DNA of 64,000 nucleotides. Source: Sinohyriopsis cumingii. Its lineage: Eukaryota; Mollusca; Bivalvia; Unionida; Unionidae. Shown here one piece after another: positions 25,758-44,941 of this stretch. How positions within the stretch are numbered: the stretch's first letter is position 1; each line of letters starts with the position of its first letter. The notes under the pieces are model-generated. The model did no database searches, was not told where the DNA came from, and saw nothing but the letters and a program-made list of their open reading frames with translations. The DNA is taken from the NCBI GenBank assembly GCA_028554795.2, contig CM068824.1, positions 158,856,289 through 158,920,288 on the forward strand, given 5' to 3'. The translations under genes and the position numbers were made by a program.

Positions 25758-26090
25758 AGTAGTAAGGGGGGTCACCCTACGTACAATGGGAATTAGCATT
25801 ACAGAGACCCCTGGGTCACTCTACGTACAATGGAAATTTAACATGGCGAAAAATCGTGGGTCACTCTACGTACAAGGGGAATTTAACATGGGAATAAATC
25901 GTGGGTCACTTTACGTACAAGGGGAATTTAACATGGAAATAGAGTTTGGGCTTGTTTAGGGACAAGGGGAATTGAACATGGGATTTTTTTTTTAAAAAAA
26001 ATTTGTTTTAAAAAAAGGGGTAGGCAATTGAAAGGCTATCTCTTTTCGAGAAATATGGGGGGCCCTGAAAAGGGCCTTTGGGTTTATGTT
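25758..26090 (+). repeat. left terminal inverted repeat
   Basis: About 330 bp, matching 44,612-44,941 in reverse. The outer 215 bp consist of about five iterated units of roughly 45 bp (GGGTCACTCTACGTACAA...GGAATTTAACATGG). The inner part includes a T/A-run and a stem-loop copy. Confidence 0.95.
26061..26076 (-). terminator. histone-type 3' stem-loop, minus strand
   Basis: Read on minus it is GGCCCTTTTCAGGGCC, a 6-bp stem with a TTTC loop, then CCCCA and a purine-rich CTCGAAAAGAGATAG block. It starts 24 nt after the stop codon of the minus-strand gene at 26,101-26,331. It fits the metazoan histone mRNA 3' stem-loop. Confidence 0.75.
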
Positions 26091-26110
26091 AATGTATTCA
26101 TTAACATAAA
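26083..26110. other. perfect 12-bp hairpin
   Basis: TTTATGTTAATG and its reverse complement are separated by TATT. It overlaps the stop codon of the minus-strand gene and lies just outside the stem-loop. Confidence 0.8.
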
Positions 26111-26331
26111 GGGCACCGCATTGGTCTTCTTGTTCTTAGGCTGCGTCTCACTGTTGGCCCGTAAATCAGCACTCTTTTCAGGCATCCTTGTCTTTCAACG
26201 TAGATCCTACGTATCCACAGGCTGGTGTTTGTCCTGTGGACAACGGTCCACTTGGATCGGACATACATCAGCATGTCCGTCCTAAACATCATGGAAGACA
26301 CAAGGGTGGATGACTCAACTGTGGTCCACAT
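26101..26331 (-). CDS. small basic protein, function unknown
   Basis: A 76-residue Arg-rich protein with no family that I recognise; its C-terminus is RTRRPMRCPLC. Support for a real gene comes from context: a minus-strand TATA box (26,374-26,384) lies about 45 nt before the ATG, and a histone-type stem-loop lies 24 nt after the stop. Four other terminal genes of this element have the same 3' arrangement. It is divergent from the gene at 26,551, with a 219-bp shared promoter region between them. Confidence 0.5.
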   Translation of the reverse strand: MWTTVESSTLVSSMMFRTDMLMYVRSKWTVVHRTNTSLWIRRIYVERQGCLKRVLIYGPTVRRSLRTRRPMRCPLC

Positions 26332-26373
26332 CTTGAAGCGACGAGAACAGGTGAATCAATGCAGTGAACTGCG

Positions 26374-26505
26374 CTTATTTATAGGCAGAGGAAGGATTGA
26401 AACGGATTGAGTTCATTCACCAATCCGAACACGCGTTACAAAATTCAGTCAGCTCGCATCCAATCCGAAGAGAACAGTCTGTGACGTCACGTGGTCTATA
26501 TAGAT
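26374..26505. promoter_or_regulatory. bidirectional promoter with CRE and E-box
   Basis: It contains a minus-strand TATA (CTATAAATAAG, 26,384-26,374) and a plus-strand TATA (TCTATATAGAT, 26,495-26,505). Between them lies a palindromic CRE/ATF site TGACGTCA (26,482-26,489) overlapping an E-box CACGTG (26,488-26,493). Confidence 0.6.
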
Positions 26506-26550
26506 TCGTTAGCGCTTGTGTGCAGTCAATCTATGCGACAGTGATTCAAC

Positions 26551-26832
26551 ATGACGGAAATTAAGAAAACGATCCATTGGGGTGCACCAGCAGGGGAGAC
26601 TGCCCAAGGGAACCCGGATTTACTTTCAGAAGAGGTGAATTGGGATTTTGTGGATTTTCTCTCCTCGCAAGAATTTGTTCCGGAACCTTCGTTACCTTCT
26701 TCATTACCGCAAGTGGAGAATTTTAGACAGAGGCAGAAAGAAGAATTGGAGAAATTTATGCAACGACAAAAGGAAGCGGAACAAGCTTTTCTCCTACAGC
26801 AACAGCAGCAAGAAGAAGAAGAGGTAAGAAAA

Positions 26833-26871
<39 letters not shown>

Positions 26872-27150
26872 GAAGTAGTAGCAGCAGCAAAGAAACAGGA
26901 GGGTGAAAATCAAACGGTCACGGTACTGTTGGACATTTTAGCGGAGTTAAGAAGTCTGAAACAAATGTATCAGACTTCTTTATTACGACCGAAGAGAATA
27001 CGACCTTCCCGAGCTAAACACGTCAACCCTGTGACTAAGCCTACCGTACCACCCTTAGTGATTTCAACCCAATCATCATCAACATTACGCAGTCCAGAAG
27101 TAGGCCTTGGCCGTGGCAAAGGCTTAAGGCAGTTAAAGTTGATTGCTTAA
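26551..27150 (+). CDS. Gln-rich coiled-coil protein, function unknown
   Basis: 199 residues. The acidic N-terminal third (about 1-55) includes NWDFVDFLSSQEF. Residues about 55-115 form a Q/E/K-rich predicted coiled coil with a polyglutamine run encoded by (CAA)n. The C-terminal part is basic, with KRIRPSRAKH. No known domain is recognised. A TATA box lies 46-56 nt upstream and a histone-type stem-loop lies 26 nt downstream. The proline/basic tail could bind nucleic acid; that is inference. Confidence 0.7.
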
Positions 27151-27175
27151 ACTCAGCCCTACACCAAAATAAAAA

Positions 27176-27196
27176 GGCCCTTTTCAGGGCCACCCA
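27176..27196 (+). terminator. histone-type 3' stem-loop
   Basis: GGCCCTTTTCAGGGCC followed directly by ACCCA. The downstream purine-rich block TCGAAAAGAGATAG (27,203-27,216) sits where a histone downstream element would bind U7 snRNA. This is the best match of the five. Confidence 0.8.
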
Positions 27197-27199
27197 CGT

Positions 27200-27453
27200 C
27201 TCTCGAAAAGAGATAGCCTTTCAATTTGCCAATAACTCAAAAAAACAAAATAAAACAAATAAACAACCCATTTTACCCCTATAGTACGTTTCTTTGTATG
27301 AGTGCGTGAGTGTACGTTCTTATTTTAAAATCAAAACTCAAAGACACTTACCTTCTATCATTAATTTATTTTTTATCCATTGTTACAATCCAATTCACAA
27401 TTCACAACAGAACACTTTAATAAAAAGTTCATTGACTTCTTCTTTCTCCTTGT
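27200..27453. other. intergenic between converging genes
   Basis: AT-rich; an AATAAA-like motif for the minus-strand gene may lie in the region (TTTATT near 27,366). Nothing else is recognised. Confidence 0.4.
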
Positions 27454-27924
27454 TTAGTCTCTCTGTTTTTTGAATTTCTTCACCGTCACAGGCTTTTCCT
27501 CTTCTTCCTTCTCACTTTCTTCCCTTCTTCTTTTCTTCTCCTGTTTCTTTTTCTTCACTTGTCTGCTTTCTTCCTCTGAAGAATCCCTCTCTTCTTGCGA
27601 AGAATCCCTCTCTTCTTCTGAAGAATCCTTCTTTTCTTCTGACTCCTCTTGTTTCTTTTTTGGGCAATCTGGAGACCAATGTCCTTTTTCTTGACAATAA
27701 TAACAAGTATCTTGACTTTTGTCTTTTTTAGCCCCTGTTTTTGTTCTTTTTTGACGGTCTGGACACTCTGAAGACCAATGCCCTTTCTTCTGACAGATAT
27801 AGCAAGTATCTTGACTTTTATCTCGAAAGGAAGGAGAGTAGTCCGTGGGCTGGTCTGAAGAGAATTTTCTAATGACCCCTCGCAAAGCTCTGACGAAACG
27901 TTCGATTTGGTTAGTCTCTTCCAT
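27454..27924 (-). CDS. CCHC zinc-knuckle protein
   Basis: 156 residues from the ATG at 27,924; an upstream in-frame extension lacks an ATG and approaches the TATA box. Two zinc knuckles of the form C-x2-C-x4-H-x4-C appear near residues 45-90: CYICQKKGHWSSEC and CYYCQEKGHWSPDC. They are followed by an S/E/K-rich charged tail with an EERDSS-type repeat and a basic end. Retroviral nucleocapsids and cellular RNA-binding proteins use this fold to bind single-stranded nucleic acid. The gene is divergent from the polymerase and shares its promoter interval, which suggests an early or replication role. It is not a standard Polinton core gene. Confidence 0.8.
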   Translation of the reverse strand: MEETNQIERFVRALRGVIRKFSSDQPTDYSPSFRDKSQDTCYICQKKGHWSSECPDRQKRTKTGAKKDKSQDTCYYCQEKGHWSPDCPKKKQEESEEKKDSSEEERDSSQEERDSSEEESRQVKKKKQEKKRRREESEKEEEEKPVTVKKFKKQRD

Positions 27925-27975
27925 CGTTGTGCTCGGCTTGAGAGTGAAATGAATAGTGAAAGGACAAGACACACA

Positions 27976-28010
27976 CCCTTTTATATACGCTGGTCTGCCA
28001 TGACTATAAA
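27976..28010. promoter_or_regulatory. divergent TATA boxes for CCHC gene and polymerase
   Basis: CGTATATAAAAGGG on minus (27,989-27,976) serves the CCHC gene and CTATAAA on plus (28,004-28,010) serves the polymerase, whose ATG is 49 nt further on. Confidence 0.65.
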
Positions 28011-28058
28011 TTAGTCTATGGTGTTTAAACTTGAGTTATTTGACGTTTTGCACTCAAG

Positions 28059-31000
28059 ATGAAACGATCATATTCATTCGAGAAGAAAGAAGAAGAAAGT
28101 AAGAGGCAGAAACGTGATCTATCGCCTCGAACCAGGGCTGAAATCTTGGCACAAATTCATGCCAGTGATTTTGAAGAGGACATGAGTGAACCAGAATCCG
28201 AACCCTCTAAACCAAGTTCACCACCCTTAGTCAACCCTGAAAAGTACTATTCCATTCGAGAGACGGAAAAGCGCTCCTCTAGAAAATTTAGAACCACGGC
28301 TTACACCTACACGGTGAAGTTTAAAGATTTCAAGGCCGACGTACCATTGGAGAAAGCAGAAGGGTTCATCACCGAGATGTGGGATTCTTTGCTCACCGCA
28401 CTCAAGCGACAATGTCAACCCAAAGAAGACGATCGCTTGACACTATCCATAGATCACGACGGTTTGAAATCCCCTGTTTGGATCGAGTTTAGCAGACCCG
28501 CAGAACTAACCCCTTCCAAAGTCATGGACAAGATTCAACACGTACAACAATCTAATGACCAGTTTGACATCACCGATGGTAAAGCCACACTGAAAATGGC
28601 CCACGTCTCTCCTCCTCAAGGGACTGGACGCAAGAAGATGTTATTGGTGGACGACCTTCGCAACACCAAAACAAGTATCGTTCGAATTAACAACCCTCAA
28701 GACCAGATGTGTTTAGCTCGAGCCATCGTGGTGGGACGAACCTATGCCAACAAGAACGACACGGTAGAATGGAAAAGAACCTGGAACACTATTCAACGTT
28801 CCGATCGAGCCAAACAACGAAACGAAGCAGAACTCCTGTTACAACAAGCCGGACTGTCCAAAGACACACCCTGTGGCATTCCTGAGATGCAAAAATTGCA
28901 AGATGCCCTAGCTCCACGATACACCTTGAAAGTGCACCCTCAAGAAATGCGTGGGTCTCTGTTGTTTCGAGGCCAAGATTTTAAGGATGGAAAATACATT
29001 CACCTTTATCATCACGATGAACATTTCGATACCATTACCAGTATCACCGGATTCCTGGGATATGTTTATTATTGTGAGAAATGTGACTATGGTTATAATA
29101 ATCGAGAGCAACACAAACATTGTGGACGGAAATGCTCAGGATGTTTGGCCTCTCCACCCTGTCTGAGCGAAGAACCAGTGCCTTGTTTAACTTGTCTGCG
29201 CACGTTTGTCAGCCCTACCTGTTACCAACAACACTTGAAGACGCAAGGTTCACAGAAGAAATGTGCTTGTCAACTGCTGAGATTGTGCCCTACCTGTGGA
29301 CAAGGCATACTTACCAATAAGGCCAAGGCACACGTATGTCGAGGAAAGAAAAAATGTCACATTTGTCACCACATCGTGGACTTGGAACACGAATGTTACG
29401 TGCAAAAATACCACCCCCCACCAGAGAAAGAGGACGGTCACAAGAAGAAAGGCAATTTCATCTTTTTCGATTTCGAATGCATGCAAGAGACTGGCATTCA
29501 CATTCCTAATTTCTGCGTGGCTCATCGAGCGTGCGAGAAGTGTATTCAAGAACCTATCTTCAGTCATTGCCCTCACTGCAGCAAGATTCCTGGAGGACGT
29601 GAAAAAATCTTTCGGGGACCAAACACGTTAGCCGATTTCGCCCAATGGGTTTTAGACCCCATCGACAAGACGTGGAGCCAAGAGGACATCGAACGTTACG
29701 GAGATTGTCATCGTCATGCCACGGTGATGGCTCACAATTTTTCCGGATACGATGGACAGTTTCTTTTGAGGTACTATACGGAACAAGGCACCGAACGTCC
29801 TAAAGTGACTTTGAACGGAGCCAAAATCGTTTTCATGCAAGTGGGACAAGTGCAGTTTAAAGATTCGATGAGCTATTTGGCCATGCCTTTGAGTCGAATG
29901 CCTAAAACGTTTGGAATGACAGAAATGGCTAAAGGGTACTTTCGACACTTTTTCAATACGGAAGCCAATCAACACGCCGTTCTACCCCATTTACCTGAGG
30001 CTCACTATTACGACCCCGACAACATGCGTACCGAACAACGAGAAGCTTTCTACGCTTGGTACCAGGCTCACACCTCGGACCCTTTCGACTTTCAGGAAGA
30101 AATGCTAAAGTATTGTCGTTCCGACGTGGACATTTTACGGCGTTGCTGTGGAAAATTTCGAGAACTGTTCATGGAACACGGAGGGGTCGATCCTTTGAAA
30201 GAAGCTTACACCATTGCCAAAGCGTGTTCCTTAGTGTATCGACAACGATTCATGCCTGAAAACACCGTGGCTGTCATCAGTCCTCAAACGACCCACTTTG
30301 TCAAGCGTCAATACTCGGTCAAAGCCCTACGCTGGTTACATTACTTGTGCGACAAGGAAGACAAGTGGGTTCAGCATGCCCGCAACGGAGGGGGCGAAAA
30401 GACCATCGGAACGTATTCGGTCGATGGCTGGGACTTAGAAAACCCCAAGATCGTGTACGAGTTTAACGGTTGCTTATTTCACGGATGTCCCGTCTGTTAC
30501 CCTGACCGTGGCACTAAAAATCAGTTTTTGCAACGAACCATGGAAGACTTGTACCAGGACACTTGTCAGCGACGCCGAAAGTTAGAACAGGAAGGATACC
30601 AAGTGGTGGAAATGTGGGAACACGAGTACGATCACCGTATGAAAACCGATCCCGAGTTTAAACGCCTCGTGGAAAGTTAGCAGTTCATGGACCCGCTGAA
30701 CCCGAGGGATAGTTTGTACGGAGGAAGGACCAATGCCACCTCTGTACCAAGCCGACGAAGAGAAAGGAGAAGAAATCAAATACTTGGACGTGTGTTCGCT
30801 GTATCCCTACGTGTGCAAATATTGTCGCTTTCCTGTAGGGCACCCGCAGTTGTTCACGGAACACATCGACCTGAAAAACATTCGACAATACGAAGGCTTG
30901 ATCAAATGTAAAGTTTTGCCTCCCACGAACCTATACCATCCCGTCTTACCTCACCATTGTCAAGGCAACCTGATGTTTCCCTTGTGCCGTACTTGTGCCG

Positions 31001-32091
31001 AAACGTGCAACCAAGACCAACCTTGTCAGCACACCCAGAAAGAACGTGCCTTGACGGGAACCTGGGTCAGCGTAGAATTGTTCAAAGCTCTGGACATGGG
31101 ATACCAACTGTTAGAAGTGTACGAAATTTGCCACTTTCCCAAGACACAACAATACCACAAGGGTGACCCTACTCAGAAAGGCATTTTCGCCGACTACGTG
31201 GATGCCTTTTTGAAACTGAAGCAAGAAGCCAGCGGCTATCCGTCCTGGTGTCACACTCCCGAAGACCAAATAAAATTCAAAGAGAAATACTACGAACAAG
31301 AAGGCATCTCTTTAGACCACATCGAGAAAAACCAAGGCAGGCGATCGTTTGCTAAAGTGATGTTAAATTGCTTGTGGGGTAAAATGGCACAACGACCGTG
31401 TTTACCCAAGACGGAATATTTGACAGAACCTTCCCGCTACTTCCAGATGATTCACGACAAAAACAAATACATGAAACACGTGGACGTCGTTCGCGAGGAT
31501 TTAATCTTGGTCAATTACGAAGAAGATCTGGACTTTGTACAAGACGACCCTTTTGGAAATGTCATCATTGCGGCTTACGTGACAGCCCATGCTCGCTTAG
31601 AATTGTACGAGGCTTTAGAACTGTTAGAAGAACGCGTCCTGTACTTTGACACGGACAGTTGCATTTACATCCATCACCCGATTCAACATCACCCTGACAT
31701 CGAAGGAGACCGTTTAGGAGCCTGGACAGACGAGCATCCCGACGACAAGATTCTAAGTTTCGTCAGTGGCGGCCCCAAAAATTACGGCTACGAATACCGG
31801 GACAAACAAGGAGAAGTGCACACGACGTGCAAAGTGAAAGGACTGACTCTGAATCATCGTACCAGTCGAGTGGTAAACTTTGGGGTATTGAAAGAAGCCT
31901 TACAATCGGGAGAGGATGGAAACTTTAAAGTGACCACCTATCAACCGAACAAGATTGTACGTTTACCCACTCACCACATCGTCAGTCGGCCCTTGGAAAA
32001 AGTCTATCAAATCGTGTACCAGAAGCGAGTGCGACTTCCCAATCACTTTACGTTGCCGTATGGACACATTGGTATAAAACATTGGTTGTAA
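28059..32091 (+). pseudogene. polB: protein-primed family B DNA polymerase, broken
   Basis: It replicates the linear element from its ends using a protein primer. The first frame (28,059-30,680, 873 codons) has a basic N-terminus and a conserved N-terminal domain (about 70-210). A Cys/His-rich zinc region follows (about 335-450), then a 3'-5' exonuclease with FFDFECMQ (about 470), AHNFSGYDGQF (about 565) and YCRSDVDIL (about 685). The second frame (30,733-32,091) holds the polymerase palm: YLDVCSLYP (motif A), KVMLNCLWGKM (motif B) and YFDTDS (motif C). Two lesions separate them. TAG at 30,678-30,680 stands where Polinton 2 has a Tyr codon, and the frame then shifts within 30,720-30,740, just after a YGGRT motif. 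The catalytic residues themselves are preserved. All lengths fit a full Polinton polymerase of about 1,340 residues. Confidence 0.95.
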
Positions 32092-32115
32092 GAGGATAGT
32101 TACCCTACCAGAAAG

Positions 32116-32574
32116 ATGACTTCGCCACAGCAAGAATCGAGTGAGAAACCCGATGAGAACTCCAAGTTCAAACCCTACCATTTTCCAGTCTTCTTACCTG
32201 ACTATTGTGATTGTGCCCATCGATTGGACACGTTTCAGAAATGGCCTACGGATAGGGAAGGATTACCTTCTTCGCATGTTTTAGCTAGAACAGGATTTGT
32301 CTACTTGGGACCCGAGTCAGGATTGGGATAGGAAGTACAGTGTTTCGCTTGCGGACTGAAGTTACGAATGGATCTATGTATCTATAAAGATTCAGCTATT
32401 CTGGAACATACTCGATGGTCTCCGCACTGCCCTTACCTTTCTATGGCCTTTCCGCCCATCACACTACGGTACAATGTTGACGGTACCTTAGAGACGGTAC
32501 CTTCCAGAACAGGACATAAAAAACGTAAAAAAGGAAAGATGTACAAGCTGGAGACTGCATTGCGACTAGTATAA
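32116..32574 (+). pseudogene. BIR-domain (IAP-like) gene with in-frame stop
   Basis: BIR domains bind zinc and, in inhibitor-of-apoptosis proteins, caspases or their activators. The frame starts at 32,116, about 40 nt after a TATA-like GGTATAAAAC, and reads into a BIR: RLDTFQKWP, LARTGFVYLG. It meets TAG at 32,329-32,331 and continues in the same frame with CFACGLKL and EHTRWSPHCPYL, then a basic tail ending at 32,574. The stop lies just before the first zinc-ligand Cys, so the truncated product lacks the zinc site. It is a paralogue of the next gene. A single substitution would explain the stop; a read error is also possible. Confidence 0.85.
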
Positions 32575-32633
32575 AATGGGGGTTATGGTCAAGATCGATA
32601 GTTCATTGTGACTACCAAGACCGAGCGAACAAG

Positions 32634-33272
32634 ATGAATACTTTCAGAGGAACACAGAACAAGTTGTTTAGAAAGGCACAATTCAAGTGTGAGACTTCGG
32701 AAGTGGAATGCGATTGTGAGCCTTGCGATGGATACGATGCTGTACCTTGTGACCTGAGCGATGGCGTAAAGCATCATGGGAACTTTAGTGTACCTACCCC
32801 TATCATGGAAAGTGATGCTGTGCGTGTCAAACCTGTGGGATGCGAAAGTGATGCCGCTCGTCCTCTTGGACATTTTACTGAGTTTCGTTTTAAAGGGGAA
32901 TGTTCACCTTCACGTCTACCCCCTTACGGATGTCATCCAGCCCTGAGCAAACTCCTGTTCATGTCACCCAACCCTCATCGAAACGAACCTGTGAAAGACG
33001 AATATTCGTTTCCTGTGCGTTTGTCGGAATACTGCGACTTTGAAAATCGTCTTCAATCGTTCAAAGGAAAATGGCCTAAGTATCTGGGAGGACCGACCCC
33101 CGAAGAATTAGCCAGAGCCGGATTTTTCTACTTGGGCGAAGGAGATAAAGTCAAGTGCTTCAGTTGCGATGTGTCACTTCACCACTGGGAACCGCAAGAT
33201 TCGGCCTACGTAGAACATGCTCGATGGTCACCGAATTGTCATTACTTACCCTTAGTGGGACCGAGACATTGA
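32634..33272 (+). CDS. BIR-domain (IAP-like) protein
   Basis: 212 residues with one C-terminal BIR (about 126-205). The zinc ligands are complete: C175, C178, H195 and C202 in the canonical C-x2-C-x16-H-x6-C spacing, preceded by RLQSFKGKWP and LARAGFFYLGEGDKVKCF. The N-terminal 120 residues are Cys-rich with no family I recognise. There is no RING finger. A TATA-like TATAAAATG lies at 32,570-32,578. Baculoviruses and entomopoxviruses carry IAPs that block host apoptosis, so a similar role is plausible but is inference. Capture from the host is likely; the best host relative cannot be named without a search. Confidence 0.85.
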   Translation: MNTFRGTQNKLFRKAQFKCETSEVECDCEPCDGYDAVPCDLSDGVKHHGNFSVPTPIMESDAVRVKPVGCESDAARPLGHFTEFRFKGECSPSRLPPYGCHPALSKLLFMSPNPHRNEPVKDEYSFPVRLSEYCDFENRLQSFKGKWPKYLGGPTPEELARAGFFYLGEGDKVKCFSCDVSLHHWEPQDSAYVEHARWSPNCHYLPLVGPRH

Positions 33273-33297
33273 AGTAACTTCTTACCATAATCTGTTC

Positions 33298-33753
33298 ATG
33301 GATACTTTACAAGAGAACATTAGTGCTTTGCCTGTGGAGTTGAGAGAACGCATTTACCGACAGCTGGTCAAAATACAAGTGAAACGTAAAGAACAATTGC
33401 ATCCGTTACGTCACCGGTGTTTGAACCACTGGTACCTGAAGGCTATACAAGGATTGATTCAATTGAAAGTGTTCCATCGGACAGACATTGATGAACGATC
33501 CTCTAGTTTTAAAAAGGATTGGTTTGGTATGGATGATTCTACCTACATCATTGTAAACGTACTGCATCGAATTCCAGAGGAAGAGTTAACGAATTACCAA
33601 CATCTTGAACACAATGTCAACTTGGTGAAAGAGGAAACTTCTGAACGAATTGTAATGTGTAGATTAGTGACTGAACGATTTAAATTCGACACTGAAGTAA
33701 AAGCATGTTTGTGCAAACAGTACATTTCTTGTGTCAGACCAAAGAGGATTTAG
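33298..33753 (+). CDS. MDTL-family protein, copy 1
   Basis: 151 residues. It begins MDTLQENISALPVELRERI, which faintly recalls an F-box (LP.EL...I...L), but the remainder is unrecognised. Two further copies follow at once (33,766 and 34,001) with nearly identical first 30 codons, so this is a tandem family. The function is unknown. Confidence 0.65.
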   Translation: MDTLQENISALPVELRERIYRQLVKIQVKRKEQLHPLRHRCLNHWYLKAIQGLIQLKVFHRTDIDERSSSFKKDWFGMDDSTYIIVNVLHRIPEEELTNYQHLEHNVNLVKEETSERIVMCRLVTERFKFDTEVKACLCKQYISCVRPKRI

Positions 33754-37145: not shown

Positions 37146-37194
37146 AAAGGCCTTCGGAAGTCCCAAGATCTCAGAATCGACCCCTGACAACCCC

Positions 37195-37593
37195 ATGGAA
37201 GGACGAAAACTAGCTTTAGTGCCTTACAAACGATGGATGGAATACCATCGGTGGCAAGAACAACGCACCCCGCATTTACCTCCCAATCCCAATTTGAGCG
37301 AGATGTCCCAGTTACAACACGAATTGCAGTTCTTGATGGATCGCCAAGATTTGTCCGAAACAGAAAAATCGCAAAAGTACGGTCAACTCTTGCAACGACT
37401 GCAACTCTTTCACCAGAAAGCTTTAGACGAAACAGCTCTACCCACTCTGAAAGATTTTAAGACCTTGATGAAAAGTCCAGCACCATCACCAGTACCAGTA
37501 CCAGTATCACCAGTACCAGTGACCAAGACAGAAAAAGGAAAGAAGAAGAAGAAGAAGGGTTTCAAACTCCACCAGAAAAAGTACGCAAGTTAA
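37195..37593 (+). CDS. conserved Polinton protein with PV-repeat tail
   Basis: 132 residues: RKLALVPYKRWMEY at the start, then a helical block with LMDRQDLSETEKSQKYGQLL. I recognise this (LVP..., DLS..EK...Y...L.R) as a common short Polinton protein of unknown function. The tail has an SPVPVPVSPVPV repeat and a lysine run. The neighbouring frame after the lysine run (from about 37,545) reads well into the next ORF (37,632-37,838), so the true protein may be longer and broken at the purine tract. Confidence 0.65.
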   Translation: MEGRKLALVPYKRWMEYHRWQEQRTPHLPPNPNLSEMSQLQHELQFLMDRQDLSETEKSQKYGQLLQRLQLFHQKALDETALPTLKDFKTLMKSPAPSPVPVPVSPVPVTKTEKGKKKKKKGFKLHQKKYAS

Positions 37594-37631
37594 CAACACC
37601 ACCTACCTCCAGAATTGGATGGATTAAAAAG

Positions 37632-37838
37632 ATGATGGCCACCCCTTCTTCATCACAAGAGAAAAAGAAAGTGAAGACAGAAGTGAAGACAGAAGTGAAA
37701 CAAGAACCGATATCCCCCGGTCAGACATCCTCCTCCTCTTCAACACCTATTGCCGGTCGCATACGCAAAGCATCGCAACCCAAGAAAATACCCCAAGAGA
37801 AAAAGAGTAGCCTCTTCCAAGAGTGGGTGCCTTATTAA
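37632..37838 (+). CDS. Lys/Ser-rich ORF, possibly the end of the preceding gene
   Basis: 68 residues with KTEVKTEVKQEPISPG (a repeat and a SUMO-site-like VKQEP) and a FQEWVPY end. The frame is open upstream of its ATG back into the purine tract of the preceding gene, so it may be that gene's C-terminus after a frameshift rather than a separate gene. Confidence 0.45.
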   Translation: MMATPSSSQEKKKVKTEVKTEVKQEPISPGQTSSSSSTPIAGRIRKASQPKKIPQEKKSSLFQEWVPY

Positions 37839-37871
37839 CACACCAACCAACCAACACAAAAAAAATAAAAA

Positions 37872-39332
37872 ATGGAAAAAGTCTTAGCCAGCATTTACTA
37901 CGATCCCTCCCATCCTGCAGGTTACGCAGGAGTTCAAAAATTGTATCGTGCTGCCAAAACGCGACTGAAAAGTCTCCGTTTACCTCAAGTACAACGATGG
38001 TTACAAGAACAAGCTACCTACACTTTACACAAACCCATTCGACGCAAGTTTGCCAGAAGTCGCACCCGAGTGGAAGGCATCGATCATCAATGGCAAGCCG
38101 ATTTAGCCGATGTCTCTCATTTGGCCAGCTACAATCGTGGCTACAAATATTTGTTTTGTGTCATCGACGTCTTTTCCAAATTTGCCTGGGTCGTGCCCTT
38201 GACTTCCAAATCGAGCAGCGAGTTAGTGCGAGCCCTGCAACGGGTGCTGAAACAAAGCGGTCGTCACCCTCTTCGATGGCAAACGGACAAAGGCACCGAA
38301 TTTTTTAACCAAGCTTTCCAAAAAGAATTAAAGAAACGTGACATTCATTTTTTTACCACCGAGAATCCCGAAACCAAAGCCAGCATCGTGGAACGTTTTC
38401 AACGCACTTTGAAAGAACGCATGTGGAAATATTTTACGCATCACCACACTCTGAAGTACATCGACATCTTACCGCACCTGGTGCAAGCGTACAAACAATC
38501 TTACCATCGAAGCATCGGACGTGCCCCGCAAGACGTGACTCCCGAGAACGAAGTGTTGGTGTTTGAGTACCTGTTTGGTACGTCCCCGACGAGGGCTGTC
38601 CCCAAGAAAAGTGGAGAGTTGGTCGTAGGAGATTGGGTGCGCATTGGCAAAACCAAACGCACTTTCGACAAAGGTTACTTACCTAACTGGACGACCGAAT
38701 TGTTTCGCGTCACTGGACGAGTGCATGGCCGTCATCCTGCCGTCTATAAATTGGAAGCCATCGCTGACAAATTCTATGCAACCTTTGAGAAAGTTCTAAA
38801 AAAACGTGTCACCATCGAGTACCACAAACTGTCTCACCGTCTACTCATCAGATTTGATAGTGAGGATAGAAGTATACGTATTAAATTTTGCCCTGGATTG
38901 TATGACATTTTGGGTGGAGACCTCAATTTGGTCACGGATAAGCAGACCAAACAAATTCACATCGCAGAGATTGACAACAACTTGTATTTTGCGAGGTATT
39001 TTCGTTACCCAGTAGAACTGAACCAAGGACTGAATTTGATCTTCGTGTACTCCGATGTGGTGGAGTACAACGTGGTGGGACACACCTCCGTGCCGTTACT
39101 GCGTGTCATTCCTTTCAAAGTAAATTCTGCCATGGCCACTGACGAGGAAGGTGGAAACACTTACCACGTCCATCGCGAATTTGTCCATCCTCACTATTTG
39201 CCTGTCAGCAAGTCGTATTTGGACACGAACAACATTGCTATAAAAGGAGATTTGGGACAAAATATTCCATTCACCAAAGGAAAAGTCACGGTGAAACTCC
39301 ATTTTCGAAAACTGTTCTCTCACGACTCGTAA
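37872..39332 (+). CDS. retroviral-type integrase fused to minor-capsid C-terminal part
   Basis: 486 residues. Residues about 1-300 are a Polinton integrase: RNase H-like core with catalytic D77 (WQADLAD), D139 (TDKGTEF) and E174 (SIVERF), then an SH3/chromo-like region (GDWVRIGK, YLPNWTTELF). It would insert element DNA, making the 6-bp duplication. From about residue 320 the sequence changes to one I recognise from the Polinton minor capsid (penton-type) protein: VYSDVVEYNVVGHTSVPLLR, HPHYLPVS and PFTKGKVTVKLHFRKL. The N-terminal half of that protein is missing. The simplest reading is an in-frame deletion joining two adjacent genes; a functional fusion is less likely. Confidence 0.9.
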   Translation: MEKVLASIYYDPSHPAGYAGVQKLYRAAKTRLKSLRLPQVQRWLQEQATYTLHKPIRRKFARSRTRVEGIDHQWQADLADVSHLASYNRGYKYLFCVIDVFSKFAWVVPLTSKSSSELVRALQRVLKQSGRHPLRWQTDKGTEFFNQAFQKELKKRDIHFFTTENPETKASIVERFQRTLKERMWKYFTHHHTLKYIDILPHLVQAYKQSYHRSIGRAPQDVTPENEVLVFEYLFGTSPTRAVPKKSGELVVGDWVRIGKTKRTFDKGYLPNWTTELFRVTGRVHGRHPAVYKLEAIADKFYATFEKVLKKRVTIEYHKLSHRLLIRFDSEDRSIRIKFCPGLYDILGGDLNLVTDKQTKQIHIAEIDNNLYFARYFRYPVELNQGLNLIFVYSDVVEYNVVGHTSVPLLRVIPFKVNSAMATDEEGGNTYHVHREFVHPHYLPVSKSYLDTNNIAIKGDLGQNIPFTKGKVTVKLHFRKLFSHDS

Positions 39333-39339
39333 GTAAGTC

Positions 39340-39759
39340 ATGTATCCAGTGTACCGAGGTGTTGCACGACAGCGAGGACACGGTTTAGGAAACATGTTAA
39401 AATCCGCCTTTCGTTCGGTGGCCCCGGTGTTGAAACCGATGGTGACACGCGGATTGCACACTTTGAAAGATGCGGCACTGACGCAAGGCAAAGAATTTCT
39501 CCAAAATGTCTTAATCTACAAACAAAACCCTAAAGAAGCATTCATGAGGGCTGGCAAAAATGTCTTGCTGCAAACGGGCAAAGACATTTTAGGTCGACGA
39601 GACACACCTATAAATGCTCTGCACGCTACCGAATCAAGCATTCAGCAAGGACAAGGCAGAAAGAGACGACGAAGAAAACACCCTTTCACCAGACTTCAAG
39701 CGAGAAAGATCAAGAAAAGAAGAAGAACCGTTCGAGACTTAGACGTTTTCGATTATTGA
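39340..39759 (+). CDS. conserved Polinton protein, pVI-like basic
   Basis: 139 residues. It starts MYPVYRGVARQRGHGLGNML, the R..RG.GLG.(M/I)(L/F) pattern found beside capsid genes in Polintons. It then has an amphipathic helical part and a basic end (GRKRRRRKH, KIKKRRR). It lies 7 nt after the integrase fusion and 18 nt before the capsid gene. A role like adenovirus pVI (internal minor capsid protein) is an inference. Confidence 0.7.
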   Translation: MYPVYRGVARQRGHGLGNMLKSAFRSVAPVLKPMVTRGLHTLKDAALTQGKEFLQNVLIYKQNPKEAFMRAGKNVLLQTGKDILGRRDTPINALHATESSIQQGQGRKRRRRKHPFTRLQARKIKKRRRTVRDLDVFDY

Positions 39760-39777
39760 GACACAGCAACAAAAAAA

Positions 39778-41113
39778 ATGATGCACCGAGAGTCTTGCGC
39801 CTGTTCCAAGACGGAACTGGATCTGTTTGCCATGCCCCCCACCATGATGACGATGCAAGAATCCCAATGGGTGGAATTTCATCCCGTCTCCTCATTGGCC
39901 GATTCCGCTCCCATCGAGTTTGAAATCAAAGGACAGCCCGAAGATTACATCGATCTGAATAGCAGTTACTTGTACTTGAAAGTCAAAGTTCTAGATAAGA
40001 CTGGAACTAGTATAGACGGTAACGAGAAAGTAGCTCCCGTCAACAATTTCATGCATTCCTTGTTCAGTGGAGTGGACTTGTACTTGAATAACAAACTAGT
40101 CAGCAGCAACATGGATACATACCCTTACCGTGCCTACCTGGAAAATCTCTTGACGTACGGAATAGACGCCAAGAACACCCATCTCAATGCCTGCGTGCTA
40201 TGGGAACCTGACGAAGCGGGCGAATTCGATAAAAAAAAAACTTGAACCTGACCCCAAATCAAACATAACCGTCAATGAGGGATTTATAGAACGAAGAAAC
40301 AAAATCAAAGATGGAAAGAGTTTAGAACTGATGGATCGTTTGCATTTGGACATGTGGTTGCAAGAGAAATATTTGCTGAACGGAGTCAATGTCCGCTTGA
40401 GACTGAATCGGAGCAGTACCGCTTTCCATTTAATAGCTGATAGTGACGATTACAAAAGCAAAATCGAGGAGGCCAAACTCTACGTACGACGCGTGGAAGT
40501 GTTACCTAAAGTGGGAAATGACATCAGTCAAACGTTGAGCAGAACGACCGCCAAGTATCCCATACGACGCGTGGAAGTGAAAACGTTCACCATTCCTGCT
40601 GGACAGCATTCCATGATCGAAGATCATCTGTTTCAAGGACAGTTACCCAAGCGTTTAATCCTTGGTATGGTCTCGAATTCAGCCTTCAACGGAGCCTTCG
40701 CTGAAAATCCTTTTGAGTTTAAACACTTTTTTGTGAAGAAAGTCGAAGTCAGTCGCGATGGCAAGACCTTGTGTACCCGACCTTTCGAACCTGTCTTTAG
40801 TGACGACGAGACTAAGATGAATTACTTAAGGTCGTACTTGTCCCTGTACGAAGCCACCGGCCAGTTAGGAACCAACACCAGTCACGGCATTACGTACGAA
40901 GATTACGCAGGAGGTTATGCTTTGTGGGCTTTCGATTTCACTCCAGACCAAGGCAGCGACGAGGGACATTTCCACCCTATAAAATCTGGCCAGATTCGTG
41001 TGGAACTTCAGTTTGCAAAAGAACTGCCAGCAACAGTGAACGTCATCCTGTATGCCGAATTCGATAATACCATAGAAATCAACAGTTTGAGAGAAGTCAT
41101 TCTAGATTTTTAG
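39778..41113 (+). pseudogene. major capsid protein, frame break at A10
   Basis: A double jelly-roll major capsid protein of the Polinton type; host databases often list such copies as 'F54H12.2-like'. The first frame (39,778-40,245) has AMPPTMMTMQESQWVEFHPV, IDLNSSYLYLKVKV and HSLFSGVDLYLNNKLV. The second (open to 41,113) has DMWLQEKYLLNGVNV, AKLYVRRVEVLPKV, the IPAGQHSMIEDHLFQGQLP block and VILYAEFDN near the end. The frame changes at a ten-A run (40,231-40,240). Everything else is conserved, so a one-base homopolymer miscount or a recent mutation is likely. Confidence 0.93.
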
Positions 41114-41118
41114 AAGCC

Positions 41119-41625
41119 ATGGAAGACTGTTATCCCTCTTTACCTAGTGGAGAAACTTTAAAGATGGAATGTGAGGAGACCGCGGAAGGAGAAGAATCTC
41201 AAGACAAAGATGAAGAAGTTGTCATAATGAAGTCAAGATGGCCAGAACAAGAAGCCCATTTAGTCTCCTGTTTTGCCAAACACTTGGTCGAAAAAATGAC
41301 GGAATTGATCAAGAAAAATTGCTATGGATGTCAAAACGCTCATCCCAGTCAAATTCAACACGATAAATGTCTGATGTTAAGTCAAGAAGAAAAATTGGAC
41401 GAGTATCTGGACGAGGCTTGGAGTCTCATCTCGGACGAAGACGTGTTACACCAGTGGTATAAAGACTTGCGTGAACATTCTTGTCCACCATTAACCACTC
41501 AAGAGATCCATCGTATCGAATCTCTCCTGAATCAGAGTGAGGAGACGAAACGAAGAAACGGTTATTTGTCAGACATTTTCAAGCAAAAAGTCAGGATCGA
41601 ATTGACGACTTATTATTACCTGTGA
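41119..41625 (+). CDS. conserved Polinton protein with C-x2-C/H zinc-like motif
   Basis: 168 residues. The acidic N-terminus is followed by CYGCQNAHPSQIQHDKCL, a Cys/His cluster that I recognise as recurring in Polinton proteins between capsid and protease genes. The C-terminal half is helical. It starts 6 nt after the capsid stop. The function is unknown; a small zinc-stabilised domain is likely. Confidence 0.7.
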   Translation: MEDCYPSLPSGETLKMECEETAEGEESQDKDEEVVIMKSRWPEQEAHLVSCFAKHLVEKMTELIKKNCYGCQNAHPSQIQHDKCLMLSQEEKLDEYLDEAWSLISDEDVLHQWYKDLREHSCPPLTTQEIHRIESLLNQSEETKRRNGYLSDIFKQKVRIELTTYYYL

Positions 41626-41644
41626 AGAAGAAAAAACAACACAA

Positions 41645-42205
41645 ATGGATACCTGGGAACTTTATTACCTTTTGAACCACAGTTCGTATACGTCTTCTTG
41701 GAATCCTGTTGTCTGTGCTAAAGATGAACTCCCTCATCGCAAACCTCAAGACCATCTAGCTTACGTGATCAACACGGACGACAGTCATCTCCCAGGAACC
41801 CACTGGGTAGCCGTCTACTTTCCTCAAGAAGGATGTGTGGAATATTTCGATTCGTACGGATTGCCTCCTTTGGAAGACGATATCATCGACTTTATGAGAA
41901 GAAATGCTCAAACCACCCGATTCAATAATGTGAAATTACAAGGCACAGATTCCTTGGTGTGTGGACAGTACTGTGTGTATTTTCTGCATCATCGTAGCCT
42001 TTGCTATTCCTTAGAACATTTAGTGACTCATTTTGATCCTCGTTCTTCTTCTAGAAACGATGTGAAAGTAGATCGATGGTTTTGTGACCATTATGCTTAT
42101 CTTTTGTCTCAAGCTAGGAAACGTAGTGTCCATCAATGGCCTAATGATTTCCAACAGTGGAAATCACAATTTCATTCACAACGTTGTCAGCCCTGTTTAA
42201 AGTAG
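41645..42205 (+). CDS. adenain-like cysteine protease
   Basis: 186 residues of the C5/Ulp1-type fold that matures capsid proteins. Catalytic set: H53 (GTHWVAVYF), D69 (EYFDSYG), Q99 (LQGTDSLVCG) and C106 (VCGQYC). It lies 20 nt after the previous gene. An AATAAA-like GAATAAAAAA follows near 42,300. No lesions. Confidence 0.95.
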   Translation: MDTWELYYLLNHSSYTSSWNPVVCAKDELPHRKPQDHLAYVINTDDSHLPGTHWVAVYFPQEGCVEYFDSYGLPPLEDDIIDFMRRNAQTTRFNNVKLQGTDSLVCGQYCVYFLHHRSLCYSLEHLVTHFDPRSSSRNDVKVDRWFCDHYAYLLSQARKRSVHQWPNDFQQWKSQFHSQRCQPCLK

Positions 42206-42434
42206 ACTGTATTTGAAGAAAAAAATGTTTGATGTTATCATGTTGGATTATTGTTTAAAATATGTTAGAGTTGTTGTTGGTTAGTGTTAAGTGATTTTTG
42301 AATAAAAAATGTTGTGTTTTTAAAAAAAATGCCTTTGTGGTTTGTTTAGCTATAAGAATGTTGGATTCATGCTCTTTGACTTCTTACTATCCCTCTCATG
42401 ACACTCACTGAACGTTGCGGCTCGAAATCCGTGT

Positions 42435-42477
42435 GGGGGATGTTTTCCTTCACGTCCGCGCTTTGACTTTAAGAACC
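42435..42477 (+). promoter_or_regulatory. CACGTCCGCG promoter block, copy 1
   Basis: GGGGGATGTTTTCCTT, then CACGTCCGCGC, then TTGACTTTAAG (TATA-like). The block is nearly identical at 43,309 and 44,121, with a partial copy at 44,051. Confidence 0.75.
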
Positions 42478-42527
42478 GGGGTTGTTTCCAGTCTAACCAT
42501 CCATTGTTGACTCATCCTCCTAAGAAG

Positions 42528-42890
42528 ATGTGTTCCAAACTAGCTAAGCTAAACGAAGCCTACGTGAATTTGCATAGGGTCAGACACAGTCTGATACCGA
42601 AGCCAGAAGAAATAGAGAATGTGAGAATGTTAAAAATCACTGAAGACCTGATAGAAGAGCTCTTCAGAGAAGAAATGAACAGGGAAAAAGAAGAATGGAC
42701 AGAGAAGTACAGACTTCAGAGACAGCAGCAACAGCAGCAACAGCAGCAGCAGCAGCAGCAGCAACCTGAAGCTGAGAGAGGCTTTGTCGATTGTCGTATC
42801 GACACCAAAGAGTTCTTCTTCTCTTTCCGAAGAAGCAGACCTATCGCCAGAAAGTCTATCCTCAGAGGACATCGCATTCTTAGAAACTAA
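42528..42890 (+). CDS. coiled-coil/polyQ protein, terminal family member 1
   Basis: 120 residues from the ATG at 42,528, which aligns with the ATG of the next paralogue. The N-terminal block KLAKLNEAYVNLHRVRHSL parallels RLEKLLELHVHLEYARRIL of the neighbour. A charged helix and polyglutamine follow, then a tail with RRSRPIARKS. No known domain. It has the shared promoter upstream and a histone-type stem-loop 32 nt after the stop. Confidence 0.65.
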   Translation: MCSKLAKLNEAYVNLHRVRHSLIPKPEEIENVRMLKITEDLIEELFREEMNREKEEWTEKYRLQRQQQQQQQQQQQQQQPEAERGFVDCRIDTKEFFFSFRRSRPIARKSILRGHRILRN

Positions 42891-42921
42891 AAAAGAATGC
42901 CATAGCAAACAAAAAAACCCC

Positions 42922-42942
42922 AGCCCTTTTCAGGGCTACCCA
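42922..42942 (+). terminator. histone-type 3' stem-loop
   Basis: AGCCCTTTTCAGGGCT plus ACCCA. The outer pair is A-T instead of G-C, a compensatory change. The purine block TAGAAAAGAAATAG follows. Confidence 0.8.
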
Positions 42943-42944
42943 AT

Positions 42945-43308
42945 ACTCTAGAAAAGAAATAGCTATTGATTTGCCAATGTGTGTAGGTAGAGTAGTGTGA
43001 ATATAAACACTAACTCTTTCTTAAAAAATGTGAGGGTATGTGTTTGTGAGTTTGTGTGTTTGTGTTTGTAAGTGCTCACGTACGTTGGTGTGGATAGTAG
43101 ATTAAAATCATGTTTTTTTTTTTGGTGTTTGAGGTGTATATTTGGAGTTAGATTGGATTGCTTTGCGTATGTAAATAGTCTATTGAAGTGATTTATAAAA
43201 AATTTTTAAATAGTGATGGGTAGCATAAAAAGTGAGTGAGTGTTTCTTTTAGGTCGGCGCGTTGTTGTTTTGGGTCATGATCTAGGTAAGATCAATTTTA
43301 TGTTTTTA
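42945..43308. repeat. duplicated spacer, copy 1
   Basis: The first 90 bp (TTTGCCAATGTGTGTA.GTAGAGTAGTGTGAATATAAACAC) recur at 43,852. The end (GGGTCATGATCTAGGTAAGATCAATTTTATG) recurs at 44,085. These mark tandem duplication of promoter-gene-terminator modules. Confidence 0.8.
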
Positions 43309-43347
43309 GGGGGATGTTTTCCATCACGTCCGCGCTTTCACTATAAA
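43309..43347 (+). promoter_or_regulatory. CACGTCCGCG promoter block, copy 2
   Basis: GGGGGATGTTTTCCAT, CACGTCCGCGC, then TTTCACTATAAA with a proper TATA box. The ATG follows 53 nt later. Confidence 0.75.
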
Positions 43348-43399
43348 TTGAAACTCGTTCGGCAGTCTAGCTACCCTTGTTGATTGATCAACACCAAAA

Positions 43400-43771
43400 A
43401 TGAACACGAGGCTGGAGAAACTGTTGGAACTTCATGTGCATCTGGAATATGCCAGGCGCATATTAAATGAACTAGCCGCGGAAGCCATTGTGGAAGAGGG
43501 AAGGATAAAAGAGGAGGAAAGAAGAAACAAAGAAGAGGAGGAGAGAAGATATAAAGAAGAAGAGGAAAGAAGATACAAAGGGGAGGAGAGAAGATACAAA
43601 GAAGAGGAGGAGGAAAAGGAGAGAAGAAGAAAAAATTTCAGAATCCCAGAAACCGAAAATTGGGATTCTGAAGCCACATATCCTGCCTCTGCTCTCTCCC
43701 CCAAAAAGGTAAAAAGTAACTGGGGGACAAGATGTGTATGTGGCGCCAGGCCTGGAAGGTGCCACCATTAA
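43400..43771 (+). CDS. charged coiled-coil protein, terminal family member 2
   Basis: 123 residues. The N-terminus is related to the previous gene; residues about 38-78 are an E/R/K/Y coiled coil built from EEERRYKE repeats. The tail has a few Cys. No known domain. It has the shared promoter upstream and a stem-loop 34 nt after the stop. Confidence 0.65.
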   Translation: MNTRLEKLLELHVHLEYARRILNELAAEAIVEEGRIKEEERRNKEEEERRYKEEEERRYKGEERRYKEEEEEKERRRKNFRIPETENWDSEATYPASALSPKKVKSNWGTRCVCGARPGRCHH

Positions 43772-43804
43772 CCAGGTGTCCATGAAGTTCCAAAAAAAAA
43801 AAAC

Positions 43805-43825
43805 AGCCCTTTTCAGGGCTACCCA
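43805..43825 (+). terminator. histone-type 3' stem-loop
   Basis: AGCCCTTTTCAGGGCT plus ACCCA, then TAGAAAAGAAATAA. Confidence 0.8.
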
Positions 43826-44050
43826 ATACTCTAGAAAAGAAATAACTATTAATTTGCCAATGTGTGTAAGTAGAGTAGTGTGAATATAAACACTAACTCT
43901 TTATTATTAGTGAGAGTCTATGTGTTTGTGTGTTTTTGTTTGTAAATGTTCAAGGAAGTTTGTGTGAATAGTAGATTATGGGTTTCTTTATTGTTTCTTA
44001 GCGTATGTGGAGAGTATAGTTTGGGTTTGATTATATGAAATGAGAGAAGT

Positions 44051-44160
44051 GGGGGATGTTTTCCTTCACGTCCGCGCGTTGTTGGGTCATGATCTAGGTA
44101 AGATCAATTTTATGTTTTTAGGGGATGTTTTCCTTCACGTACGCGCTTTCACTATAAGAA
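44051..44160 (+). promoter_or_regulatory. CACGTCCGCG promoter block, duplicated
   Basis: A first copy without TATA at 44,051-44,080 and a second (CACGTACGCGC, then TTTCACTATAAG) at 44,121-44,160. They are separated by the GGGTCATGATCTAGG spacer also seen before copy 2. Confidence 0.75.
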
Positions 44161-44198
44161 CCCACAGTATTCGTCGTTCAAACCATTCTACAAAGAAG

Positions 44199-44597
44199 AT
44201 GGCTTCTAACCAAATTGACAAAATGCAAACATTGCAAGACGTTTTAGACAACTTAGGAATGATGGAGCAGATGTTAATAAGACTCGTTGAAGACCACTAT
44301 TCCTATAGTCCCCATCGTGTAAAGATGGAAATTAATAACTTAAGAAAGGTAAAGGACAAGATAAGTGGTGTCATGAAAGAGATAAAGGAGGAGAAGGAGG
44401 ATGAAGAGGAAAGGATAAGAATACGCAAATGGAACGAAAAAATTGAAAAAGAAGAAGAAAATGAGAAGAGGAAGAAAGAAGAGGAGGAAGAGAAGAAGAA
44501 AGAAGAGGAGGAAGAGAAGAAAGAAGAGAAGAAAAAAAAGAAGAGAAAGAGTGTAGGAGAGAAAATAAGAAGTTGGTTGAGAAAAAGAAGAAATTAG
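44199..44597 (+). CDS. charged coiled-coil protein, terminal family member 3
   Basis: 132 residues from the ATG at 44,199; the upstream open frame covers the promoter and is not credible. A helical N-terminus (LQDVLDNLGMMEQMLIRLVEDH) is followed by an E/K coiled coil and a basic end (KIRSWLRKRRN). No known domain. The stop lies just before the right inverted repeat, which supplies its 3' stem-loop. Confidence 0.65.
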   Translation: MASNQIDKMQTLQDVLDNLGMMEQMLIRLVEDHYSYSPHRVKMEINNLRKVKDKISGVMKEIKEEKEDEEERIRIRKWNEKIEKEEENEKRKKEEEEEKKKEEEEEKKEEKKKKKRKSVGEKIRSWLRKRRN

Positions 44598-44611
44598 AAG
44601 CAGAAGAAGAA

Positions 44612-44941
44612 AAACCAAAGGCCCTTTTCAGGGCCAGCCATATTTCTCGAAAAGAGAATGACTTTTCAATTGCCTACCTCTTTTTTTAAAAACAAATTTT
44701 TTTTTTAAAAAACATCCCATGTTCAATTCCCTTTGTCCCTAAACAAGCCCAAACTCTATTCCCCATGTTAAATTCCCCTTGTACGTATATCGACCCACGA
44801 TTTATTCCCATGTTAAATTCCCCTTGTACGTAGAGTGACCCACGATTTTTCGCCATGTTAAATTTCCATTGTACGTAGAGTGACCCAGGGGTCTCTGTAA
44901 TGCTAATTCCCATTGTACGTAGGGTGACCCCCCTTACTACT
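44612..44941 (-). repeat. right terminal inverted repeat
   Basis: Reverse match to 25,758-26,090, with the same iterated GGGTCAC...TTTAACATGG units and a small number of differences. Confidence 0.95.
44620..44640 (+). terminator. histone-type 3' stem-loop within the right TIR
   Basis: GGCCCTTTTCAGGGCC preceded by CCAAA (as in histone genes) and followed by AGCCA, then CTCGAAAAGAGAATG. It starts 22 nt after the stop codon. Confidence 0.8.

Follow-up and report, generated by a model that had tools for sequence, protein, structure and literature searches.

Polinton 1 and its terminal genes

The window (the whole 64-kb stretch of DNA that was analysed) contains a virus-like mobile element, Polinton 1, whose features are collected in Table 1. 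Like other Polinton/Maverick (adintovirus-like) elements, it has inverted repeats, a 6-bp duplication, a type B DNA polymerase, an rve integrase and an A32-type ATPase. The polymerase domain PF03175 was found by Pfam in two ORFs (E 5e-15 and 3.4e-24), the integrase matched PF00665 (E 2.9e-14), and the ATPase matched PF04665 (Pox_A32; E 7.5e-8). For the ORFs called capsid-like and protease-like, Pfam returned nothing, and both names are our own reading. No relatives were recovered from IMG/VR with the integrase, the ATPase, the C-terminal polymerase piece or the capsid-like piece, or from the phage collection searched with the ATPase. Polinton 1 differs from known Polintons/Mavericks in that its terminal genes bear histone-type 3' ends and a histone-type promoter element, features that we followed in one host.

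The five terminal genes (P1a, P1b, P3, P4 and P5) had dN/dS values of 0.10-0.52, and purifying selection acts on them. None of their products matched a histone family in Pfam, in agreement with the initial annotation, which had held that these proteins are not histones. A sequence search of the PDB with P1a and P1b returned nothing useful.

Table 1. Coordinates of Polinton 1, its terminal genes and their candidate control signals in the window
Feature	Position	Strand	Remarks
Polinton 1	25758..44941	+	19,184 bp; terminal inverted repeats; 6-bp duplication AACAGT on both flanks
P1a gene	26101..26331	-	76 aa; conserved in 16 sequences, mean dN/dS 0.10; no Pfam match
P1a hairpin	26061..26076	-	RF00032 37.0 bits; host-histone model 45.9 bits
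P1a downstream element	26039..26050	-	CTCGAAAAGAGA
P1b gene	26551..27150	+	199 aa; mean dN/dS 0.47 over 11 sequences
P1b hairpin	27176..27191	+	RF00032 37.1 bits; host-histone model 49.8 bits; aligned across 17 copies
P1b downstream element	27202..27213	+	CTCGAAAAGAGA
P3 promoter element	42439..42461	+	one mismatch to host H2B element
P3 gene	42528..42890	+	120 aa
P3 hairpin	42922..42937	+	outer pair A-T; RF00032 27.6 bits; host-histone model 37.9 bits
P3 downstream element	42948..42959	+	CTAGAAAAGAAA
P4 promoter element	43313..43335	+	exact; 24 nt common with host H2B promoter
P4 gene	43400..43771	+	123 aa
P4 hairpin	43805..43820	+	outer pair A-T; RF00032 31.0 bits; host-histone model 53 bits
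P4 downstream element	43831..43842	+	CTAGAAAAGAAA
P5 promoter element, upstream copy	44055..44077	+	one mismatch
P5 promoter element, near copy	44124..44146	+	two mismatches
P5 gene	44199..44597	+	132 aa; length counted from ATG common to other copies
P5 hairpin	44620..44635	+	RF00032 33.9 bits; host-histone model 49.3 bits
P5 downstream element	44646..44657	+	CTCGAAAAGAGA

Hairpins, downstream elements and their host counterparts

The exact string [A/G]GCCCTTTTCAGGGC[C/T] was present five times in Polinton 1, each time in sense orientation and 3' of the stop codon of a terminal gene. The initial annotation had placed five such hairpins 22-34 nt past the stop, with a constant TTTC loop, a covarying outer pair, variable flanks and a purine-rich block behind each, and every part of this description was confirmed. 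All five lay exactly where it had put them; the gap from the stop was 24 nt for P1a, 25 for P1b, 31 for P3, 33 for P4 and 22 for P5. A 6-bp stem and a 4-nt UUUC-type loop were found in all five, the outer pair being G-C in three and A-T in two, and the flanks read, in site order, CCCCA, ACCCA, ACCCA, ACCCA and AGCCA. The purine block took one form in three genes and another in two (Table 1), and GAAAAG stood exactly 13 nt past the hairpin in every gene. When the 14-nt hairpin core was searched in the window with up to three mismatches, 15 matches were obtained, compared with a mean of 2.97 (maximum 8) in 100 shuffles; the only five matches with zero mismatches were the Polinton hairpins. RF00032, the Rfam stem-loop model that the initial annotation had proposed for scanning Polinton genomes, matched all five hairpins in the window (E 3.2e-7 to 1.2e-3). 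Only two of them reached the gathering score of 34 bits; the others scored 33.9, 31.0 and 27.6 bits.

Near-identical 3' hairpins were found in the host H1, H2A, H2B, H3 and H4 genes, where GAAAAG follows the hairpin at 13 nt (H4, H2B and H3) or 14 nt (H2A and H1), so that the purine element of Polinton 1 stands at the host spacing. A covariance model was trained solely on these five host histone 3' ends and run on the window with filters off and E<=1; it returned exactly five sites, the Polinton hairpins, at 37.9-53 bits. With RF00032 on the host genome, the eight best copies scored 44.1-45.6 bits and the host histones 35.0-39.4 bits. The initial annotation had read the element as a user of the histone 3'-end machinery. 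This reading is supported by the resemblance to host histone 3' ends, because the stem, the loop, the core of the downstream element, its spacing and the stop-codon distance are those of the host genes, and because a model built from host histone 3' ends alone finds only the five Polinton sites. A search of the host for U7 snRNA (RF00066), in which only 65 of 801,960 candidates were scored and the control gave no signal, returned no match.

Poly(A) signals, promoter element and controls

Poly(A) signals were scanned as AATAAA or ATTAAA up to 250 nt past the stop. Such signals followed four of the 14 non-terminal ORFs (the zinc-knuckle ORF, orf34481, orf37195 and the protease); the ATPase gene had none in this range. 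The earlier statement that core genes such as the protease and the ATPase have AATAAA-like signals thus held for the protease but not for the ATPase. Among the terminal genes, P1b had an AATAAA 17 nt past the stop, ahead of the hairpin, and further signals at 98 and 107 nt, and P3 had a single signal at 210 nt. These signals would suit a gene with dual 3' ends, normally polyadenylated and turning to its hairpin only on occasion, in S phase or during active infection. We regard this as not very likely, since P1a, P4 and P5 have no signal within 250 nt of the stop, and since the downstream element and its 13-nt spacing, which are relevant only to U7-type cleavage, have been kept.

A promoter element, GATGTTTTCC(A/T)TCACGTCCGCGC, was found with zero to two mismatches upstream of the three right-end genes P3, P4 and P5 and was absent from P1a and P1b. 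The host H2B promoter contains this element unchanged, and the host H1 promoter has it with a single base different; the H3 and H4 promoters had no copy within five mismatches. When the starts of nine other ORFs were tested for exact substrings alongside the five terminal genes, only P4 stood out, with 24 nt against 15 or fewer in shuffles. P3 and P5, which carry the element at one or two mismatches, showed no long exact string, and P1a, P1b and the nine other ORF starts did not stand out. Histone-like control of the terminal genes gains independent support because a histone promoter element precedes three of the five. The element occurred at 45,743 places in the genome (reversed control, 0), far above the number of histone genes. 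This abundance, its absence from H3 and H4, and the fact that the host genes sampled were histone genes only would fit a promoter element in general use in this animal, one uninformative on histone-like timing. Such a reading is unlikely: each of the 20 places sampled by the promoter element alone was followed by a histone-type hairpin with its downstream element, and in no case did the element lead to an unrelated gene.

Among copies of the P1b 3' end, the hairpin was exact in 13 of 17 and AAAAG was present in all 17, and the hairpin/downstream region was kept where the adjoining untranslated sequence varied. Some copies were missing parts; in one (L109) the downstream element was gone. Such losses, and the closeness of the sequences to host signals, are what would be expected if a host histone gene had once been the source of the 3' ends and they were now functionless. 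This is very improbable. The excess of conservation in the signals over their untranslated neighbourhood speaks against it, as do the flank ACCCA (56/67), which is unlike that of any of the five host histone genes, the presence of a separate copy in each of the five genes, and the retention of hairpin and downstream element at every one of the 20 sampled sites.

The exact hairpin string was present in 107 IMG/VR stretches, with a crude purine-motif or AC-flank match in five of these and both in only one, L036, which was also the sole stretch returned by a search for the hairpin-plus-element pattern. L036 was rejected as a true histone-type 3' end and judged a chance occurrence because its outer pair is broken and it scored only 19.2 bits with the host-histone model. 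That model was also run on 100 stretches of the viral collection that contain the exact hairpin string, where it gave a maximum of 28.8 bits; the best-scoring control stretches examined, four in number, read as terminators or plain hairpins without a downstream element. Identical hairpins do arise by chance as phage terminators in the viral collection, but the idea that the Polinton hairpins act in DNA or as plain transcription terminators, histone-like by accident, is hardly credible, since the chance hairpins have no downstream element and reach no more than 28.8 bits, compared with 36.1-54 bits, and the Polinton hairpins in the window always stand 3' of a stop codon in sense orientation.

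A proposed link to the host histone programme

The hairpin, the downstream element, their spacing, the match to host signals, the shared promoter element, the conservation among copies and the coding constraint are all read directly from the DNA, and the sequence evidence for histone-type 3' ends is very strong. Polinton 1 resembles the metazoan replication-dependent histone mRNA 3' end (RF00032 hairpin, downstream element, SLBP and U7 snRNP) in its 6-bp stem, 4-nt UUUC loop, ACCCA-type flank, purine core AAAAGA at 13 nt, hairpin 22-33 nt past the stop and short ORF. It differs in that its genes match no histone family and sit in a mobile element, and in that the outer pair is A-T in two of the five hairpins.

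The five terminal genes very probably mimic histone genes: host SLBP and U7 snRNP would process their 3' ends, and they would be expressed as part of the histone programme. The hairpin on each short transcript would be a ligand for host SLBP, and the purine element 13 nt beyond it would be the target of host U7 snRNA through pairing with CTAGAAAAGA. CPSF73 of the U7 snRNP would then cut a few nucleotides past the hairpin, and the product would be a stable mRNA without poly(A), present chiefly during cellular DNA replication. On the three genes with the H2B/H1-type promoter element, transcription too may follow the histone programme. Binding by SLBP and U7, cleavage, absence of poly(A) and S-phase timing of these mRNAs are what we infer from the signals.

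With viral histones, for example bracovirus H4, DNA viruses make use of the histone system of the host. The viral protein in that case is itself a histone, whereas in the Polinton the regulation appears histone-like and the protein is not. Histone-type 3' processing is regarded as all but exclusive to replication-dependent histone genes. PMC7026596 gives the mammalian purine core as AAAGAG, with cleavage at a fixed distance from it. Our literature search, which covered its sources in part, met no description of histone-type 3' ends in Polintons; the only related line met, in PMC12220804, counts six Rfam 'histone 3'UTR stem-loop' matches in polinton-like virus and virophage genomes. In a term search, 'stem-loop' and 'SLBP' were both absent from the review PMC9145170.

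A stronger form of the proposal, held tentatively and somewhat short of probable, is that the terminal genes are full mimics (promoter element, short ORF, hairpin and U7 element) that would be transcribed in or recruited to histone locus bodies, with an S-phase peak when the DNA of the element can be copied. If so, with perhaps 10,000-20,000 right ends per genome, these pseudo-histone units could compete with histone genes for SLBP and U7.

The findings suggest that Polinton 1 borrows the DNA-replication-linked histone expression system of its host. The many Polinton copies would also offer naturally occurring variation in the hairpin and the downstream element, and the rules of recognition might be read from it. 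If the proposal is true, it would represent a new way of linking the expression of a mobile element to host DNA replication, one that dispenses with polyadenylation.

Terminal genes of Polinton 1 and their 3' ends

Two ORFs of Polinton 1 encoded type B DNA polymerase sequence; its other products included an rve integrase, an A32-type ATPase and a BIR-domain protein. The five hairpins sat behind its five outermost genes: P1a and P1b, divergent at the left end, and P3, P4 and P5, in series at the right. The hairpin positions claimed in the initial annotation were exact and all lay within Polinton 1, 22-33 nt after the stop codons. Scores against RF00032, the Rfam histone 3' stem-loop model, were 37.1, 37.0, 33.9, 31.0 and 27.6 bits, with two of the five passing the Rfam cut-off of 34; no other match was found in the window at E ≤ 5. 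No hairpin was found within 250 nt after any of 14 non-terminal ORFs. AATAAA-like signals, attributed in the same annotation to core genes such as the ATPase, were present behind 4 of these 14 ORFs (AATAAA or ATTAAA within 250 nt), but the ATPase was not among them.

Features of the window and hairpins of the host histone genes
Feature	Position	Strand	Size	Remarks
Polinton 1	25758-44941	+	19,184 bp	terminal inverted repeats; 6-bp duplication AACAGT
P1a	left end	-	76 aa	
P1b	left end		199 aa	divergent from P1a
Zinc-knuckle (CCHC) ORF	27454-27924	-		beside polymerase; AATAAA/ATTAAA signals 3' of stop, no hairpin
BIR (inhibitor of apoptosis) domain protein	32634-33272			PF00653, E 9.9e-24
LINE-type ORF	10108-13131		1,007 aa	endonuclease and reverse transcriptase domains
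Tandem repeats	~13.3-15.3 kb			after LINE-type ORF
Two more polymerase-gene copies	55472-64000			inverted, head-to-head; 55532-58610 vs 60922-64000 reversed, 98.5% match; both 92-94% like Polinton 1 polymerase
Host H4 and H3 hairpin	L146			GGCCCTTTTTAGGGCC
Host H2B hairpin	L146			GGCCCTTTTCAGGGCC
Host H2A hairpin	L146			GGCCCTTTTAAGGGCC
Host H1 hairpin	L146			GGTCCTTTTCAGGACC

No Pfam family scored above its cut-off for any of the five terminal proteins. Charged residues were abundant in P3-P5, which by our reading look like coiled coils. Mean pairwise dN/dS was 0.10 for P1a (16 sequences), 0.47 for P1b (11), 0.52 for P3 (6), 0.21 for P4 (10) and 0.17 for P5 (6), in a sample restricted to ORFs with the expected start and minimum length and thus excluding broken copies. 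A search of IMG/VR for relatives found none.

Match to host histone genes and conservation among copies

In the host genome (2.9 Gb, 1,138 contigs), histone genes formed tandem repeats of about 8.3 kb; of the 119 candidates scored in a search for H4, 114 matched, and 109 of these were full length with a protein identical to the query. In L146, a host stretch, H4, H2B, H2A, H1 and H3 each had a terminal hairpin 27-38 nt past the stop. The offset of GAAAAG after the hairpin was 13 nt in H4, H2B and H3, 14 nt in H2A and H1, and 13 nt at each of the five Polinton hairpins. When the window was scanned, filters off, with a covariance model trained on these five host 3' ends alone (the host model), five matches were obtained at E ≤ 1, each below 1e-5, and these were the five Polinton hairpins. 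As a control, 100 of 107 IMG/VR stretches containing the exact hairpin string reached at most 28.8 bits, and most matched by the hairpin alone (18.7 bits); the downstream element (the purine block 3' of the hairpin) was absent from four of them that were inspected. A conserved TTTCAA..TTGCCAAT lay a few nt past the downstream element in most aligned P1b copies (27220-27240 in the window, and homologous places); TTTCAA likewise lay 3' of the host H2B downstream element.

Among 589,472 first-look RF00032 candidates genome-wide, 75 were scored and all exceeded the cut-off; the eight best loci were ends of Polinton 1's family, at 44.1-45.6 bits vs 35.0-39.4 bits for host histone genes. A census of 28 loci (8 + 20; ≤1 mismatch, or ≤3 with the purine element) counted 67 hairpins: 43 GGCCCTTTTCAGGGCC, 15 AGCCCTTTTCAGGGCT and 9 variants. 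The flank was ACCCA in 56, and AAAAG occurred at offset 14 in 60 and at 15-16 in 4, being missing in 3; since the loci were gathered via RF00032, these counts are biased to intact sites. A less biased sample was the P1b hairpin, located from the coding region of the window copy and of 16 others, two of which (L150 and one of two in L151) had been gathered via that hairpin itself. Stem and loop were exact in 13 of the 17 and the other four had one or two stem changes; loop TTTC and AAAAG were kept in all 17, and nearby untranslated sequence varied in sequence and length. In an alignment of 18 sites, a choice that took in variants as well as the five host histones, the outer pair was formed by G-C in 12 and by A-U in 4, with no pairing in the remaining 2. 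The covariation score (0.157) was above all 500 shuffles; the number of pair types was not exceptional (reached by 494 of 500), and A-U occurred mostly in the P3/P4 type, indicating few independent events.

A promoter element common to three terminal genes and host H2B and H1

The promoter element GATGTTTTCC(A/T)TCACGTCCGCGC was found, with 0-2 mismatches, upstream of P3, P4 and P5 at distances of 89, 87 and 75 nt from the ATG, with an additional copy further upstream of P5; it was absent from P1a and P1b. It was exact at -107 in the host H2B promoter, which had 24 nt in common with P4 (longest match in 200 shuffles, 15), and had one mismatch at -105 in H1. A reversed copy with four mismatches lay between H2B and H2A; none was found at H3 or H4 with up to 5 mismatches. 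A lone copy with 3 mismatches lay at 60764-60786 (-), between the inverted polymerase copies; no ORF of at least 100 aa followed it.

Genome-wide, 45,743 places (22,594 + 23,149) matched with ≤1 mismatch, and the reversed control matched none. The 100 places listed, all exact and in the first 7.7 Mb of contig 1, formed 45 groups, 33 with at least two, as expected of right ends of Polinton 1's family. The density of these first groups suggests, roughly, on the order of 10,000-20,000 such ends; the count is of ends, not whole elements, and if these were full elements the expansion would be exceptionally large.

The first-listed place in each of the first 20 groups was sampled, picked by promoter element alone. 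In about 700 nt, a script recovered hairpin and downstream element at 16 of the 20 places and the host model at 17, two of which were cut by the stretch end; the four script misses, read 600 nt further, all contained both (47.4-52.6 bits). All 20 thus led to hairpin and downstream element, 427 to about 850 nt 3' of the promoter element. The longest ORF began 85-90 nt into the stretch in 18, some stopping well short of the hairpin; two had no normal ORF there. A further terminal gene type, with an N-terminus like MEVTKLFNDLRHSYFWIMDG (stretches L173, L177, L182 and L183; longer L189-L191), had the same promoter element and ended in a histone-type hairpin.

Predicted processing by the host

According to PMC7026596, the histone hairpin is bound by SLBP and the downstream element base-pairs with U7 snRNA; CPSF73 of the U7 snRNP cuts between hairpin and element, at a fixed distance from the latter. 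Processing of mouse H2a was severely inhibited when its AAAGAG core was replaced. In the one host species covered, sequence comparison established the cis parts, their match to the host parts, their conservation, the coding constraint and the linkage to a histone promoter element. Because every cis part was present in the Polinton sites at the host's spacing, the simplest reading is processing by host SLBP and U7. With RF00066, no U7 match was found among 65 scored of 801,960 host candidates, and no control gave a signal, so the result does not bear on absence.

A search of open-access literature (preprints and most subscription journals outside) for Polintons, adintoviruses, Mavericks, viruses or transposons with a histone stem-loop or SLBP gave one relevant line. 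The section concerned of PMC12220804 lists six 'histone 3'UTR stem-loop' matches among collected genomes of polinton-like viruses and virophages and does not discuss them further; its cryptophyte elements had none. Within the literature searched, histone-type ends on Polinton genes appear to be new.

We infer protein binding and cleavage for the terminal-gene mRNAs: host SLBP and U7 would process them, and the mRNAs would lack poly(A) and rise in S phase. The gain for the element would then be that its products are made while host replication runs.
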